A DNA stretch of 55,259 bases from Thermonema rossianum DSM 10300 (GTDB taxonomy: Bacteria; Bacteroidota; Bacteroidia; Cytophagales; Thermonemataceae), in the NCBI RefSeq assembly GCF_000426825.1, contig NZ_AUGC01000016.1, forward strand, positions 1 to 55,259. Reading direction: 5' to 3'. Below are positions 8,514 to 52,508 of the stretch, piece by piece. Position 1 is the first letter of the stretch. Each line of letters opens with the position of its first letter. The translations under genes and the position numbers were made by a program. The notes beneath the pieces are model-generated. The model made no database searches. It saw only the letters and a program-made list of their open reading frames with translations, and was not told the origin of the DNA.

Positions 8514-8585
8514 AAAATCAGACACTTTGTCTTTGTTTTACAATGTTTTTATGACAAAATCTGCCACTATGTCCTTGTGTTGCCT
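8514..8585 (+). promoter_or_regulatory. Two imperfect repeats carrying GACA-N3-TGTC operators upstream of clpB
   Basis: A 28-bp unit at 8514-8541 recurs at 8557-8584 with 22 of 28 positions equal. Each copy carries a palindrome-like core: GACACTTTGTC (8521-8531) and GCCACTATGTC (8563-8573). A further half site TGACA lies at 8552-8556. The second core is centred 21 bp before the GG of the clpB promoter. The same core occurs before htpG at almost the same distance. It is probably a binding site for a shared regulator (inference). Confidence 0.6.
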
Positions 8586-8586
8586 T

Positions 8587-8602
8587 TTGGCTTGCCCTTT
8601 GT
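8587..8602 (+). promoter_or_regulatory. Sigma-54-like promoter of clpB
   Basis: TTGG (8587-8590), ten bases, then GT (8601-8602), within TTGG-CTTG-CCCTTTGT. Sigma-54 promoters have GG at -24 and GC at -12 exactly ten bases apart; here the -12 is GT, a known weaker variant. The start of transcription would be near 8614. The htpG promoter has the same TTGG-N4-CCCTTTG frame. Confidence 0.55.
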
Positions 8603-8646
8603 ATATAAAAAAGGCAAAAAACAACAATTAAAAAGGAGGATAAGAT

Positions 8647-11262
8647 ATGAACTTTGACAAGTATACCATCAAATCGCAGGAGGTCATCCAACAGGCAGTG
8701 TCTATTGCACAAGCCAATCAGACCTCTGTAGTGGAAACCGGACACCTGCTCAAGGCCGTCCTGGAAAGCGACGAAAATGTAACAGGTTTTCTGTTCAAGA
8801 AGCTGAACGTAAACCTGAACTACCTGAAAAGCAAATTAGAAGAAATTATCAGCTCTTATGGCAAGGTGAGTGGTGGCAGCCCGCATTTGTCCAACGATGC
8901 GGCACAAGCACTCAAGCGCGCTGAAGACTATCTCAAAAACTTCAACGATGAATTTGTTGCCGTTGAACATATTTTATTGGGGCTTTTGAGTGGTAAAGAC
9001 CGCGTAGCGCAGCTGCTGAAAGATATGGGCGTTGCCGAAAAGCAACTCATACAAGCCATCAAAGAGCTGCGCGGTGGCGGACGTGTAACCGACCAAAATG
9101 CTGAAGCCAAGTACCGCTCACTGGAGCGCTATTCGAAGAACCTGACCAAGCTGGCAAAAGAAGGCAAGCTGGACCCCGTCATCGGGCGCGACGAAGAAAT
9201 TCGCCGTGTGATGCAAATACTATCGCGGCGCACCAAAAACAACCCTATCTTGTTGGGTGAGCCCGGTGTGGGTAAAACTGCCATTGTAGAAGGCTTGGCA
9301 CAGCGTATTGTGGCCGGCGACGTGCCCGAAAACCTGAAAGACAAACAACTGGTAGCCCTTGACATGGGCTTGCTGGTAGCCGGTGCCAAATATAAAGGCG
9401 AGTTTGAAGAGCGTTTGAAGTCGGTGATTAAAGAAGTAACTGACTCGAATGGCCAAATCATTTTGTTCATCGACGAAATCCATACTTTGATTGGTGCCGG
9501 TGCAGGCGGCGATAGCGCCATGGATGCTGCCAACCTCTTGAAACCGGCTTTGGCACGTGGCGAGCTGCGTTGTATCGGGGCTACCACGCTCAAAGAATAT
9601 CAGAAATACATAGAAAAAGACAAAGCACTGGAGCGCCGTTTCCAACCGGTCATGGTCGATGAGCCCAGCATCGAAGATGCCATTTCCATCTTGCGTGGTT
9701 TGAAAGAACGCTATGAAGTACACCATGGCGTGCGCATTCAAGACGATGCCATCATTGCAGCCGTAGAGCTTTCGGTGCGTTATATTACCGACCGCCAACT
9801 GCCCGACAAAGCCATAGACCTGATTGACGAGGCAGCGGCACGTTTGCGCATCGAAATAGACTCTATGCCCGAAGAGCTCGACGAACTGGAACGCCGCATC
9901 ATGCAATTGGAAATTGAACGCGAAGCCATCCGTCGTGAAAACGACAAGGAGAAAGAGGCAGTCCTTTCTAAGCAAATCGCCGAGCTTTCGGAACAGCGCG
10001 ACGCACTGAAAGCCAAGTGGAAGCAAGAAAAAGAGCTTGTGCAGCAAATACAGAGCATCAAGGCAGATATCGAAAACCTGCGCATCGAGGCAGAGCAAGC
10101 CGAGCGCGAAGGCGACTACGGGCGTGTGGCTGAAATACGCTATGGGCGTATCCTCGAAGCCGAGAAGCGTTTGGAAGAACTGCGCAAGCAGCTGCATGAA
10201 ATACAGGGCGAAAAACCCATGTTGAAAGAAGAAATTACTGCCGAGGACATCGCCGAAATCGTATCGCGCTGGACCGGCATCCCTGTATCGAAGATGCTGC
10301 AAAGCGAACGGGAAAAGCTCTTGCACCTTGAAGACGAGCTGCACAAGCGTGTGGTAGGGCAAGACGAAGCCATCCGTGCTGTATCGGATGCCATTCGGCG
10401 CAGCCGTGCCGGCTTGCAGGACCCCAACCGTCCGATTGGTTCGTTTATCTTCTTAGGTCCTACCGGTGTGGGTAAAACCGAGCTGGCAAAAGCCCTTGCC
10501 GACTACCTCTTCAACGACGAAAACGCCATGGTGCGCATCGACATGTCCGAGTATCAAGAGCGCCATTCGGTGAGCCGTCTCATCGGTGCGCCTCCCGGAT
10601 ACGTAGGCTATGACGAAGGCGGACAATTGACCGAAGCAGTGCGCCGGCGTCCTTATTCGGTGGTGCTCTTGGACGAAATAGAAAAAGCGCACCCCGACGT
10701 GTTCAATATCTTGTTGCAAGTGCTTGACGACGGGCGCCTGACCGACAACAAAGGGCGCACGGTCAACTTCAAAAACACCATCATCATCATGACTTCGAAC
10801 ATGGGGGCTGAGCTCATTCAAGCCAACTTTGAAAACATCACCCCCGAGAACGAAGACGAGGTGGTGGCACAAACCAAAGAACAAGTGCTTGACTTGCTGA
10901 AACGCAACTTGCGTCCCGAGTTCTTGAACCGTGTGGATGAAATCATTATGTTCCGCCCGCTGTCGAAAGAAGACATCCGCGAAATAGTAGAAATACAACT
11001 CAAACAAGTAAACAAACGCCTCGAAGCCGAAAATATCGAATTGGTAGTGGACGACAGCATCTACGACCTCTTGGCAGACGTAGGCTTCGACCCGCAATTT
11101 GGTGCCCGTCCGCTGAAACGAGCCATTCAGCAACTCATACTCAACGAGTTGTCGAAAGAAATCATCGCGGGCAAAGTAAAAGAAGGCGACGTGGTGCACG
11201 TATCCTTCGACAGCAACGAAGAACGAGTGAAGTTCGAAGTAGTGGACAAAATAGAAGCGTAA
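8647..11262 (+). CDS. clpB: ATP-dependent chaperone ClpB
   Basis: An 871-residue disaggregase. In order: the Clp N-domain (1-145), first AAA+ domain with Walker A GEPGVGKT (204-211), coiled-coil middle domain (about 400-530), second AAA+ domain with Walker A GPTGVGKT (604-611), and the C-terminal small domain. The middle domain separates it from ClpA/ClpC. It threads aggregated protein through a hexamer with DnaK. The start is fixed by AAGGAGGA at 8633-8640, six bases before the ATG; such a site is rare in Bacteroidota. A doubled operator and a sigma-54-like promoter lie upstream. Confidence 0.98.
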
Positions 11263-31991: not shown

Positions 31992-34385
31992 TTAAAGCTG
32001 TAAAGCATGCTTGAGCACTTCTTGCGCCGTGCGCACGTATTTTATCTTGAGCTTTTTGATAAGTGGCGATTTGATTTCTTCCACATCTCTTTGGTTGGCT
32101 TCACATAAAATCACCTCTTGAATGCCCGCACGTTGGGCTGCCAGTAGTTTTTCTTTGATGCCACCTACCGGAAGCACTCTGCCGCGCAAGGTGATTTCGC
32201 CGGTCATGGCCAATCCGTTGCGTACGGGTTTTTGCAGGTATAGCGAAGCCAACGAAGTAAGTATGGTGATGCCGGCCGAAGGACCGTCTTTGGGAATGGC
32301 GCCTTCAGGTACGTGAATATGTAAGTCGTACTCTTCAAAAAGACGGCTGTCGATACCTAAAGCTTCGGCTTGTGATTTTAAAAGAGTAAAAGCGGTGGTA
32401 GCTGATTCTTTCATCACCTCGCCCAAGCGTCCCGACAAGGTCAACTTACCTTTGCCGCGGGTGAGCAGCGATTCGATGTAAAGAATATCACCGCCGACGG
32501 GCGTCCAAGCCAGCCCTATAGCCACCCCATGCGGCAAATTCTCTTCGCTTAGCTCTTTGTGATAAGGTGGTTTTCCTAACAATTTATACACATCGCTTGC
32601 TTTAATAACCTTGGGGTACGCCTCTTCCATGGCTACGGCTTTGGCTACTTTGCGCATGAGGCTGCCCACCTGGCGCTCGAGTTGCCGGACACCTGACTCC
32701 CGTGTATATTCTTCAATCAGCGTAAGCAAAGCATTCTCTTGCACACGCACCTGCTTGCCGCTCAATCCGTTGGCTTCCCGTTGTTTAGGCACCAAGTACT
32801 GCTTGGCTATTTCCAACTTCTCATCTATAGTGTATCCGGTTAGTTCTATGATTTCCATCCGGTCGCGGAGGGCAGGATGCAGGGTATCCAAGGTGTTGGC
32901 AGTAGCAATGAAAAGCACTTTCGAGAGGTCAAACGGCACTTCCAAGAAGTTATCCACAAAGGCATTGTTTTGCTCGGGGTCCAGCACTTCCAACAAAGCC
33001 GATGCAGGGTCACCACGGAAGTCACTGCCTATTTTGTCGATTTCATCCAGCACAAACACGGGGTTAGATGAGCCGGCACGCCGTAGTAACTGAATGATTT
33101 TGCCCGGCATGGCACCAATATAGGTTTTTCGGTGCCCCCGTATTTCGGCTTCGTCGTGTAAGCCACCTAATGACATGCGCACGTATTGGCGTCCCAGCGC
33201 CTTGGCAATGGATTTGCCCAAGGAGGTTTTGCCTACCCCCGGAGGGCCATATAAGCAAAGAATAGGACCTTGCAGCGACGATTTGAGCTTCATCACTGCC
33301 AAAAATTCCAAGATGCGCTCTTTTACTTTTTCCAGCCCGTAGTGGTCTTGGTCTAATATCTTTTTTGCATGTTGAAGGTCCAGCTTGTCTTGCGAAAAGC
33401 GCCCCCATGGCAGGTCAAGTAGCAGTTCAAGGTAGTTGACTTGTATGCCATATTCAGGCATGCCCGGTGCCAGACGCAGTAGCTTGTTCACCTCTTTGTC
33501 GAAGTGTTTGGCTACCTCTTCGGGCCAGTCCATTTGAGCCGCCTTCTCTTTGAACTCTTCCACCAGGGCACCTTCGTGCTCATAGCCCAGCTCATGCTGC
33601 AGCACCTTGATTTGCTGACGCAAGTAGTAGTCGCGTTGCTGCTTGTCTAAGTCGCTATGTACTTTCTTTTGAATTTCATTTTTCAGCTCCAGCAGCTGTA
33701 TATTTTTGAGTAGCTGCTCGAGCAGTGCCATGCCCCGGCGAATGATGTCATTTTCTTCAAGCAGGCGTTGCTTTTCGGGCAGGCTTATTTGCAGCTGCAC
33801 CGATAAAAAATTGACCAGAAAATGAAAGCTTTCAATATTGGACAGAGTGGCGTAAGCATCTTCCGAGAGCTCCGGATGCAACTGTATCATGCGACGGGCG
33901 GCATCCATCAGGTTTTCTTTAAGTGCCAGCGCTTCGTCGCTGTGGGTGTTGGCATCTGTTTCTAAAAGAGGTTCAACCTCCGCTATGAAATAGGGTTCCT
34001 CTTGGACGTACTGTTGAATTTGAAAACGCCCTAAGCCTTGCAATACGACGGTTACCTGCCCGTTGGGGAGGTTGACACGTTTTAGTATTTGGGCGGCTGT
34101 GCCTACCTGAAAAAGGTCTTGGCTGCCGGGGTCTTCTATTTGTTCATCTTTTTGCGCTACAATGCCAATGATAGAACCTTGCTTGCCATGTTGCTGAATG
34201 AGTTGCATGGACTTCTCGCGCCCCACTGTAACCGGAATGATGACACCGGGAAACAGCACTGTGTTGCGTACGGCCAAGATAGGCAAAGGGGAGGGTATAG
34301 GGCGCTTACGAAGGCCGGCCTCTTCTTCCTCGTTGAGCAGGGGAAGCATCTCGAATCCTTCGTCTGCTTGCATATGTCTTATCAT
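31992..34385 (-). CDS. lon: ATP-dependent protease Lon
   Basis: A 797-residue LonA protease. Order: N-terminal substrate domain (about 33-230), helical linker, AAA+ domain with Walker A GPPGVGKT (380-387) and Walker [10 protein letters not shown], and the protease domain with the Ser703 (GPSAG) and Lys746 (GGIKEK) dyad. It degrades misfolded and regulatory proteins. Unlike clpB and htpG it shows no TGACA-N3-TGTC box, no sigma-54-like promoter and no Shine-Dalgarno sequence. Confidence 0.98.
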
Positions 34386-34528: not shown

Positions 34529-34536
34529 CAAAGGTA
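34529..34536 (-). promoter_or_regulatory. lon -7 element candidate
   Basis: On the minus strand TACCTTTG followed by CAAAC, identical to the -7 elements of the three rrn promoters at the other end of the window. No good -33 box is seen. The leader would be about 135 nt. Confidence 0.45.
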
Positions 34537-50603: not shown

Positions 50604-50616
50604 TGACAGAATGTCA
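50604..50616. promoter_or_regulatory. TGACA-N3-TGTCA palindrome upstream of htpG
   Basis: TGACA-GAA-TGTCA, perfect five-base arms, centred 20 bp before the GG of the htpG promoter. The clpB upstream region has the same kind of core at nearly the same distance. Confidence 0.65.
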
Positions 50617-50627
50617 GAGTCTTGTGC

Positions 50628-50643
50628 TTGGAATACCCTTTGC
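50628..50643 (+). promoter_or_regulatory. Sigma-54-like promoter of htpG
   Basis: TTGG (50628-50631), ten bases, GC (50642-50643) within TTGG-AATA-CCCTTTGCT. The spacing and the GG and GC dinucleotides match sigma-54 -24/-12 elements. Transcription would start near 50655. Confidence 0.6.
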
Positions 50644-50672
50644 TTACCGAACAACAGGAGTAAAAAAACCAA

Positions 50673-50680
50673 AAGGAGGA
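50673..50680 (+). promoter_or_regulatory. Strong Shine-Dalgarno of htpG
   Basis: AAGGAGGA, seven bases before the ATG at 50688. Only clpB in this window has the same site. Confidence 0.85.
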
Positions 50681-50687
50681 CAGCACT

Positions 50688-52508
50688 ATGGCAGCAATAA
50701 AAGAGCAAGGACAAATTCAAGTAAGTACCGAAAATATTTTCCCCATCATCAAAAAGTTTTTGTATGCCGACCATGAAATATTCTTGCGTGAGCTGGTATC
50801 GAATGGCGTGGACGCCTGCCAAAAATTAAAACGCTTGGCGTCGATAGGGGAGTTTCAAGGTGAATTGGGCGAGCTAAAAGTAGAGGTCATCTTAGATAAA
50901 GAGGGCAAAAAAATCATTGTAAAAGACAACGGCATAGGCATGACCCCCGAAGAGGTGAAGAAGTACATCAACCAAGTGGCTTTTTCGGGGGCTGCCGAGT
51001 TTGTACAGCGCTATAAAGAAGCCGGCAATGACATCATAGGTAAGTTCGGATTGGGCTTTTATTCTGCCTTCATGGTAGCCGACGAAGTAGAGCTTATCAC
51101 CAAGTCCTATAAAGAGGAAGCACCGGCAGTCAAATGGCGTTGTGCGGGTGATACGCACTTTGAAATAGAAGAAGCCACAAAACAAGAGCGTGGCACAGAG
51201 GTGATTCTGCACATAGGCAAAGAAGGCGAGGAGTTTCTCAACAAATTCCGCTTGCAGGAAATACTGGACAAGTACGCACGCTTCTTGCCCGTTCCTGTGT
51301 GGTTCGATGGCAAGCAAATCAACGACACCGAGCCTCTGTGGGTAAAATCGCCCCAAGATTTAAAGGACGAAGATTATTTGAGCTTCTACAAGCAACTTTT
51401 CCCCTTTGCCGAAGACCCACTGTTTTGGATTCATCTGAATGTTGACTATCCTTTTACCTTGACGGGCATTCTTTACTTCCCGAAAATCACCAGCCAGTTC
51501 GACATACAAAAAAGCCGCATACAACTCTACTGCCGGCAGGTGTTCATTACCGATGAAGTGCGCGACATTGTACCCGAATATCTCATGTTGCTTCATGGCG
51601 TCATCGACTCGCCCGACATACCGCTAAATGTATCGCGCAGCTACCTGCAGTCCGACAGCAACGTGCGCAAAATCAATCAGTACATCACCAAGAAGGTAGC
51701 CGAAAAACTACAAGAGCTCTTCAATAAAGACCGCAAAGCCTTTGAAGAAAAGTGGGAGGGGCTTGGGCTGTTCGTAAAATATGGGATGATTACCGATGAC
51801 AAGTTTTTTGAAAAGGCGCAAAAATTCTGTTTGCTCAAAAACACCGAAGGGCAATACTTTACCATTGACGAATACAAACAAAAAATAGAAGCCGTTCAAA
51901 AAGACAAACACGGTACCATCATAGCGCTTTATGCACAAGACACCGATAAACAATATACTTACATTGAAGCAGCACGCAAGCGCGGATACGATGTGTTATT
52001 GATGGATGGCATCTTGGATGCGCATTTTATTCAGCGTTTAGAAATAAAGCTCGACGCTTTCCGCTTTAAGCGCGTGGACGCCGACTCTGTGGAGAAGCTC
52101 ATCGAAAAAGACGATACCAACGCCACGCATGCACTCACCAAAGAAGAAGAGGAAAAAATCATCAAACTCTTCAAGGAAACCCTTCAAGACGACAAGCTGA
52201 ATATCAAGGTAGAAGCGCTGTCAATACATGACCTGCCGGTAGTGATTACCTTGCCGGAGTTCATTCGCCGGATGAAAGAAATGTCACAGTTGCAGGGGCA
52301 GCCCATCAAACACTTGCCTTCCGACTGGCAAATTATTATCAATGGCAACCACTCCTTCATACAAAAAGTGCTACAAGAAGCTGATGCCGACCGCCAAAAA
52401 TTACTGCTGCGCCATGCCTACGACCTGGCACTGCTTTCGCAAGGGCAGCTGCAAGGCAAGGCGTTACATGACTTCATTGAGCGTAGCTTGGCGTTGGCTG
52501 AAAAATAA
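50688..52508 (+). CDS. htpG: Molecular chaperone HtpG (Hsp90)
   Basis: A 606-residue Hsp90. The N-terminal GHKL ATPase domain has ELVSNGVDACQKL (Glu and Asn for Mg-ATP), DNGIGM and GKFGLGFYSAF. The middle domain includes NVSRSYLQSD, and a C-terminal dimerisation domain follows. It is somewhat shorter than E. coli HtpG, as in many Bacteroidota. It helps fold and remodel client proteins with DnaK and ClpB. A strong ribosome site, palindrome and sigma-54-like promoter precede it. Confidence 0.97.
   Translation: MAAIKEQGQIQVSTENIFPIIKKFLYADHEIFLRELVSNGVDACQKLKRLASIGEFQGELGELKVEVILDKEGKKIIVKDNGIGMTPEEVKKYINQVAFSGAAEFVQRYKEAGNDIIGKFGLGFYSAFMVADEVELITKSYKEEAPAVKWRCAGDTHFEIEEATKQERGTEVILHIGKEGEEFLNKFRLQEILDKYARFLPVPVWFDGKQINDTEPLWVKSPQDLKDEDYLSFYKQLFPFAEDPLFWIHLNVDYPFTLTGILYFPKITSQFDIQKSRIQLYCRQVFITDEVRDIVPEYLMLLHGVIDSPDIPLNVSRSYLQSDSNVRKINQYITKKVAEKLQELFNKDRKAFEEKWEGLGLFVKYGMITDDKFFEKAQKFCLLKNTEGQYFTIDEYKQKIEAVQKDKHGTIIALYAQDTDKQYTYIEAARKRGYDVLLMDGILDAHFIQRLEIKLDAFRFKRVDADSVEKLIEKDDTNATHALTKEEEEKIIKLFKETLQDDKLNIKVEALSIHDLPVVITLPEFIRRMKEMSQLQGQPIKHLPSDWQIIINGNHSFIQKVLQEADADRQKLLLRHAYDLALLSQGQLQGKALHDFIERSLALAEK

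Follow-up and report, generated by a model that had tools for sequence, protein, structure and literature searches.

In the HrcA-CIRCE and sigma-32 systems, one regulator serves the chaperone set, as we also propose here. The CIRCE repeat, TTAGCACTC-N9-GAGTGCTAA, lies before groES or dnaK in HrcA regulons. Upstream activating sequences of enhancer-binding proteins (EBPs) are typically located at -80 to -150. In Myxococcus xanthus, the receiver-type two-component system HsfA-HsfB includes an NtrC-type regulator linked to a heat-shock gene; to our knowledge, it has no tie to the palindrome or the chaperone core set described below. At sigma-54 promoters, transcription begins about 12 bp downstream of the -12 element and depends on rpoN. 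PspF consists of an AAA+ core and a Fis-type helix-turn-helix (HTH) domain without an N-terminal sensor, which is the same architecture as that of our candidate regulator, P0003.

In Bacteroidota, chaperone genes are enriched for predicted sigma-54 promoters, according to the part of one study available to us (PMC12316311). In Flavobacterium psychrophilum, sigma-54 motifs (SM4) are reported at the mapped starts of groESL, lon, dnaK, grpE-dnaJ, htpG and clpB (PMC9723704). The accessible part of the latter study mentions three activator-domain proteins that it does not assign; it contains no regulator assignment and no heat condition, and the word palindrome is absent from its main text. A sequence-only reading of the DNA analysed here had proposed a sigma-54 heat-shock regulon. 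Our results support the regulon; sigma-54 control of chaperone genes in this phylum was already published (PMC9723704, PMC12316311). In the open-licence literature searched, mostly at title level, we found no palindrome, phasing or regulator named for this regulon. For Bacteroidota of gut, soil and sea, with no sigma-32 found in the genome studied, we here offer a candidate regulator with its likely binding site, together with a spacing rule and the set of genes concerned.

Control elements of clpB and htpG

The window is the whole stretch of 55,259 bp that was analysed. Its source genome comprises 2.95 Mb in 24 contigs and is 97.5% complete; the closest htpG genes among named genomes belong to one Cytophagales MAG (64% identity) and one Microscillaceae MAG (60% identity), so that we assign the source genome to the order Cytophagales. 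The following features were located in the window, with palindrome centres set such that the second G of GG is -24.

8521-8531, no strand: distal palindrome core GACACTTTGTC before clpB, centre about -88
8563-8573, no strand: proximal palindrome core GCCACTATGTC before clpB, centre about -46
8587-8602, + strand: predicted sigma-54 -24/-12 element of clpB, TTGGCTTGCCCTTTGT (TTGG, GG-N10-GT), predicted start about 8614
8632-8639, + strand: strong Shine-Dalgarno stretch of clpB, with AGGAGG at 8634-8639
8647-11262, + strand: clpB, 871 aa, TIGR03346 above cut-off
31992-34385, - strand: lon, named by Pfam
34529-34536: sigma-A-type box TACCTTTG upstream of lon, found by eye
50604-50616, no strand: palindrome TGACAGAATGTCA before htpG, centre about -45
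50628-50643, + strand: predicted sigma-54 -24/-12 element of htpG, TTGGAATACCCTTTGC (TTGG, GG-N10-GC), predicted start about 50655
50672-50679, + strand: strong Shine-Dalgarno site AAAGGAGG of htpG
50688-52508, + strand: htpG, 606 aa, NF003555 above cut-off

The letters and coordinates that the sequence-only reading had given for both elements are correct by direct reading, and the GG-N10-G spacing is exact in both promoters. The gaps between palindrome and box had been noted as 13 and 12 bp. The near-constant spacing holds, and the values become 14 bp for clpB and 13 bp for htpG by a common definition, in which the gap runs from the last base of the 11-bp core GNCANNNTGNC to where TGG begins. 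The activator site had also been described as unusually close. It is indeed proximal, but this is only part of the geometry, as clpB and hsp20 have a second palindrome 42 bp upstream; at clpB, this is the distance between the proximal and the distal core. We scored the elements with a model, R1, that uses sequence only and was built from 64 elements, leaving out the source genome and its sister. The proximal palindrome and -24/-12 box of clpB together score 12.0 bits, and the -24/-12 element and palindrome of htpG score 20.2 bits. As previously noted, lon is without the composite, and clpB and htpG carry the only composites of the window. In F. psychrophilum, by contrast, lon is reported to have a sigma-54 promoter (PMC9723704, as far as available to us).

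Occurrence beyond chance and conservation in Bacteroidota

The palindrome alone, with up to one mismatch, was found 9 times in the window compared to 14.4 expected. TTGGNNNNNCCTTTGY with up to two mismatches was found 58 times compared to 45.3 expected, and 58 was reached in 3 of 100 shuffles. Palindrome and -24/-12 box are thus singly near chance, and only the combination counts. With a gap of 12-16, the composite occurs at two places in the 55 kb window, clpB and htpG. No composite was found in 200 kb drawn from other parts of the genome, although 80 lone palindromes are present there. A simple pattern for the composite, run on the own genome, matched htpG only, because the proximal palindrome of clpB is imperfect.

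Conservation was estimated from two sets of upstream regions that each include the source genome, with the start codons of relatives called mechanically. The htpG set consists of 80 loci (80 from named genomes, minus L094, which came without upstream DNA, plus the window). The clpB set comprises relatives among 59 genomes, with a first batch of 30 loci and 20 more, giving 50. Among the htpG upstreams, 72 of 80 contain the palindrome, 75 contain TGG-N8-TTG and 65 contain both with a gap of 5-30, compared to means of 2.6, 5.9 and 0 in 100 rounds of dinucleotide shuffling. For the first 30 clpB upstreams, the corresponding numbers are 25, 23 and 10, with shuffle means of 0.9, 2.0 and 0.01 (100 rounds). 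When the gap was restricted to 12-16, the 79 htpG loci gave 59 composites before htpG; the 563 kb covered contain a single further match, which lies 384 bp before a called htpG start. The elements of the model span Cytophagales, Sphingobacteriales, Chitinophagales, Flavobacteriales and Bacteroidales; the invariant columns of their alignment (A1) stem in part from selection by regular expression. We conclude that the composite is real and far beyond chance.

Promoter type and sigma factors

The spacing between TGG and TTG has a sharp peak. N8 is present in 74 of 80 htpG upstreams, N7 and N9 in 4 each, and the largest count at any other spacing is 15 (N13). For clpB, N8 is present in 23 of 30 upstreams, N7 in one and N9 in none. 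The -7 box of the phylum is TAnnTTTG (PMC9723704, as far as available to us), and it was found at the place of the -12 box in none of the 65 htpG elements and none of the 10 clpB elements.

The sequence-only reading presumes a sigma-54 factor, and rpoN is present and complete (494 aa), with the AID, core-binding and DNA-binding domains all recognised by Pfam. Eleven proteins match Sigma70_r2 in the genome (97.5% complete). Classed by length and reading, these are one primary factor (287 aa) and ten ECF-sized factors (167-223 aa), and no sigma-32-like gene was found among them. The prediction that these are sigma-54 promoters is supported by the GG-N10-G spacing in all seven heat-shock promoters of the own genome, by the presence of rpoN and by the recurrence of the element before chaperone genes.

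Heat-shock genes with the element

A search of the own genome with R1, in which 150 of 1235 first-look candidates were scored, yielded at least seven hits with E<=10. The matches listed include dnaK (E-value 1e-5), htpG (0.0018), hsp20 (2.95) and degP (6.5 and 8.3); the remaining ones are in the interior of a formyltransferase-like gene (0.3) and at the htpG palindrome on the other strand (0.37). clpB, at 12.0 bits, is absent from the matches listed. Direct reading adds grpE, with dnaJ adjoining, and groES to the genes bearing the element. groES and grpE were found by family and degP by Pfam, and dnaK, hsp20 and dnaJ were named by reading.

Six of these seven promoters (dnaK, grpE, hsp20, degP, clpB and htpG) have an exact palindrome at a gap of 13-14, and groES has a palindrome with one mismatch at a gap of 25. 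The box has the form TGG-N8-TTG at dnaK, hsp20, clpB and htpG, CGG-N8-TTG at grpE and degP, and TGG-N8-GTG at groES. A second palindrome is found not only at hsp20 but also at degP, there 31 bp upstream. The element had been anticipated before groESL, dnaK, hsp20 and grpE. This was borne out at dnaK, hsp20 and grpE; at groES the -24/-12 spacing is kept and the palindrome is degenerate.

Several model matches, L123 in the own genome as well as L167, L171, L177, L178 and L179, lie inside coding sequence and were rejected as chance. The matches L169, L180 and L186 are near contig ends. One composite is located before a gene for a DUF2911-like predicted secreted protein (L183, G012:C104:3600-3639; named by reading), which is a possible regulon member outside the chaperones.

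Spacing and helical phasing

Among the 50 clpB upstreams, 37 have an exact palindrome (missing from 13), and the -24/-12 box is found in 33 in strict and in 39 in relaxed form. The 43 gaps measured are 13-14 (12 cases), 23-24 (4), 54-56 (14) and 64-66 bp (8), with one each at 27, 33, 75, 97 and 116 bp. Gaps above 16 bp (n=31) are concentrated at one phase of a 10.5 bp period (R = 0.85, Rayleigh about 2e-10), where the p-value is a guide since the species are related and 10.5 bp was one of four periods tried. Furthermore, of 11 exact palindrome pairs before clpB, 9 are separated by 41-43 bp. Both the multiples of 10.5 bp among the gaps and this pair distance fit a protein acting from one helical face. 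For htpG, gaps of 13-14 dominate, and weak phasing is seen among those exceeding 16 (n=23, p about 0.02). Such a fixed adjacent site would be a clean case of sigma-54 activation without a long DNA loop.

A sensor-less candidate regulator

Sigma-54 activators exist in the genome, as the sequence-only reading had presumed: three proteins have a full-length activator domain. P0003 (429 aa, contig C1) contains only an AAA+ domain (PF00158, 234 bits) and an HTH (HTH_8, 56 bits). L116 has a receiver, an AAA+ domain and a Fis-type HTH, and is followed by a histidine-kinase-like gene (by reading). The third, L114 (positions 1255-2415 of this locus, on contig C6), is a receiver-AAA+ activator without a DNA-binding domain and adjoins a GH3-type-like enzyme gene (by reading).

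PspF chains match residues 18-244 of P0003 (E about 1e-60). The score of P0003 against the PspF equivalog TIGR02974 is 287.6 bits, below the cut-off of 443.55, and none of the 25 NCBIfam families among the matches listed is above its own cut-off. P0003 differs from PspF in its gene neighbourhood and in a stretch of more than 100 residues that separates AAA+ from HTH and includes a predicted helix. The predicted fold (mean pLDDT 77.5, pTM 0.56) comprises the AAA+ domain, a helix of 32 residues (286-317), a low-confidence stretch and the HTH; the linker between AAA+ and HTH is covered by no Pfam family. The G[AS]FTGA loop is present in 32 of 33 parsed orthologues and reads GAFTDA in the other one (3 of 36 loci were not parsed). 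In the HTH, the recognition-helix residues ISERxLYRKxK are invariant in 28 orthologues.

Orthologues of P0003 (E <1e-100) were found in 56 of the 59 genomes of the order, including the source genome, and were not detected in G014 (93% complete), G018 (88%) and G039 (84%). The orthologue is the sole activator match in seven small genomes (1.1-2.6 Mb), two of which are less than 90% complete. All seven contain rpoN, and six have elements at chaperone genes (by model R1, with genes named by reading).

G032: htpG
G012: grpE and clpB
G058: grpE; htpG with the -24/-12 box only
G047: dnaK, groES and hsp20, of which the groES and hsp20 elements are imperfect
G029 and G044: dnaK, where the gap exceeds the usual one by about one helical turn

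In the seventh, G020, the model found no chaperone element, and the clpB palindrome is missing in G029, G044 and G058. Across eight small genomes, 30 model matches were found at E<=2, of which 12 are before chaperone genes or miaB, some of them partial; as a 13th, L174 falls on the opposite strand of the miaB palindrome in G032. G014 has a dnaK element despite the undetected P0003 orthologue, and G018 has a clpB palindrome and -24/-12 box, yet neither the orthologue nor rpoN was detected there. Incomplete assembly is the likely reason in both cases. The sequence-only reading had called for a dedicated regulator instead of a sigma-32, and P0003 is a strong candidate for this role.

Neighbourhood and promoter of the activator gene

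We examined 20 activator loci of relatives. The gene ahead of the activator was recognised as miaB in 18 loci, and groEL is found downstream in 10 of the 20; lptE-like, TPR-like and secG-like genes, named by reading, lie between miaB and groEL. In the accessible part of the F. psychrophilum study, a probable sigma-54-dependent regulator and lptE (THC0290_0733-0732) have locus numbers close to those of groESL (0729-0728), like the cluster in the relatives here (PMC9723704). This linkage is not seen in the source genome, where the activator gene is on C1 and groES on C9. We regard this sensor-less EBP, which in relatives is linked to miaB and often to groESL, as the probable dedicated regulator.

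In 13 of the 18 loci (among L203-L221), the 200 bp upstream of miaB contain the palindrome (shuffle mean 0.45, maximum 3, 300 rounds). No -24/-12 box was found at these miaB palindromes. TAnnTTTG follows within 45 bp in 6 of 13 cases in strict and in 10 of 13 in loosened form, which is weak evidence in AT-rich DNA. In the family of the window, the palindrome precedes the EBP gene itself in all seven loci (L131-L137, source and sister included; shuffle mean 0.14, maximum 2), with a strict TAnnTTTG within 8 bp in three. In L133-L135, a stretch upstream of the EBP gene resembles a -24/-12 box but was rejected by eye, as it reads GG-N11-G. The palindrome at a putative sigma-A promoter suggests autoregulation of the EBP gene, which from this position would be negative.

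Proposed mechanism and alternative explanations

We consider it likely that these are sigma-54 heat-shock promoters, and that an EBP of the P0003 type reads the palindrome and drives the chaperone set. The sigma-54 RNA polymerase would sit closed on the -24/-12 box. The sensor-less EBP would bind the TGNCA-N3-TGNCA palindrome 13-14 bp upstream of the box, and at some promoters also a second palindrome about four helical turns further upstream, and would open the promoter through ATP hydrolysis. A single activator may in this way serve clpB, htpG, dnaK, grpE (with dnaJ adjoining), hsp20, degP and probably groES-groEL. Bound to the palindrome in its own promoter region, the EBP would probably limit its own synthesis. 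As it is without a sensor domain, the heat signal may perhaps reach it via chaperone titration. The composite, its conservation and phasing, the gene set, rpoN, the near-universality of the candidate and its neighbourhood in relatives are computed; that P0003 binds the palindrome and activates, and that heat is the signal, is what we infer.

The palindrome could be read by another protein, such as a repressor, L116 or a factor of another family, with the sensor-less EBP serving other promoters. Palindromes this near a promoter are common for repressors, and a centre at -45 is nearer than typical enhancer sites. L116, which is of the receiver type, also has a Fis-type HTH and could bind the site in the source genome, and the two genomes without a detected orthologue (G014, G018) keep the element. 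However, the sensor-less EBP is the only match of its kind in the seven small genomes, six of which keep the element before chaperones, and the same palindrome precedes either the EBP gene itself or the miaB operon to which it belongs. The multiples of 10.5 bp at clpB and the tandem copies 41-43 bp apart also fit an activator facing the polymerase. We thus regard another reader of the palindrome as unlikely.

Two further explanations would leave sigma-54 a minor role or none, and both appear highly improbable to us. Heat shock could be controlled by HrcA-CIRCE or sigma-32, which are the classical systems, with the sigma-54 box being secondary. Yet the 11 sigma-70-family matches comprise a single primary factor, the other ten being of ECF size, and a CIRCE-like repeat with up to four mismatches was found at none of eight own loci, where a single match with five mismatches lies at the far end of the grpE locus. 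As far as these searches reach, the present system differs from the classical ones in both respects. Likewise, the -12 box shares TTTG with the sigma-A -7 box (TAnnTTTG) and could be such a box, with the palindrome as the site of an ordinary regulator. Against this stand the absence of TAnnTTTG at that place in all 75 elements, the TGG peak exactly 8 bp from TTG, and the sigma-54 motif that the orthologous genes of F. psychrophilum have at their mapped starts (PMC9723704, as far as available to us).

Strong Shine-Dalgarno sites of the heat-shock genes

Besides sharing the predicted sigma-54 promoter, six of the seven heat-shock genes (clpB, htpG, dnaK, hsp20, degP and grpE, but not groES) carry AAAGGAGG shortly upstream of the start codon. 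Outside the window, these strong A-rich sites are located in L121 (1575), L125 (1592), L126 (1627) and L191 (1346). We compared this to a sample of 186 mechanically called, non-overlapping open reading frames (ORFs) of at least 120 aa from the window and the 200 kb sample. AAGGAGG before the start is found only at clpB and htpG and at none of the other 184. Plain GGAGG occurs at 12 other ORFs, in all cases at least 70 bases inside the called frame. Matches of AAGGAGG plus start in L121, L195 and L196 were not counted as genes, as their frames have 11, 19 and 52 codons. In relatives, GGAGG in the last 25 bases is present in 5 of 50 clpB upstreams and 2 of 80 htpG upstreams, with the source genome included in each count. 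GGAGG is thus rare before these genes in relatives, and the strong site is therefore a lineage trait.

According to the available part of a study on these ribosomes, the ribosomes of Bacteroidia normally hide the anti-Shine-Dalgarno sequence, and strong sites are preferred by ribosomes without bS21 (PMC9976891). The strong sites hint at a second, translational layer that may act through bS21-lacking ribosomes. Taken together, a broader picture is conceivable, although we hold it to be doubtful as a whole: the EBP would be the heat-shock master regulator of the phylum, replacing sigma-32 or HrcA, inhibited by free chaperones whose production it promotes and placed at an adjacent site face-to-face with the sigma-54 polymerase, and in this genus a regulon marked by Shine-Dalgarno sites would be preferred by bS21-lacking ribosomes. 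If true, transcription and ribosome specialisation would be joined in a single stress response.
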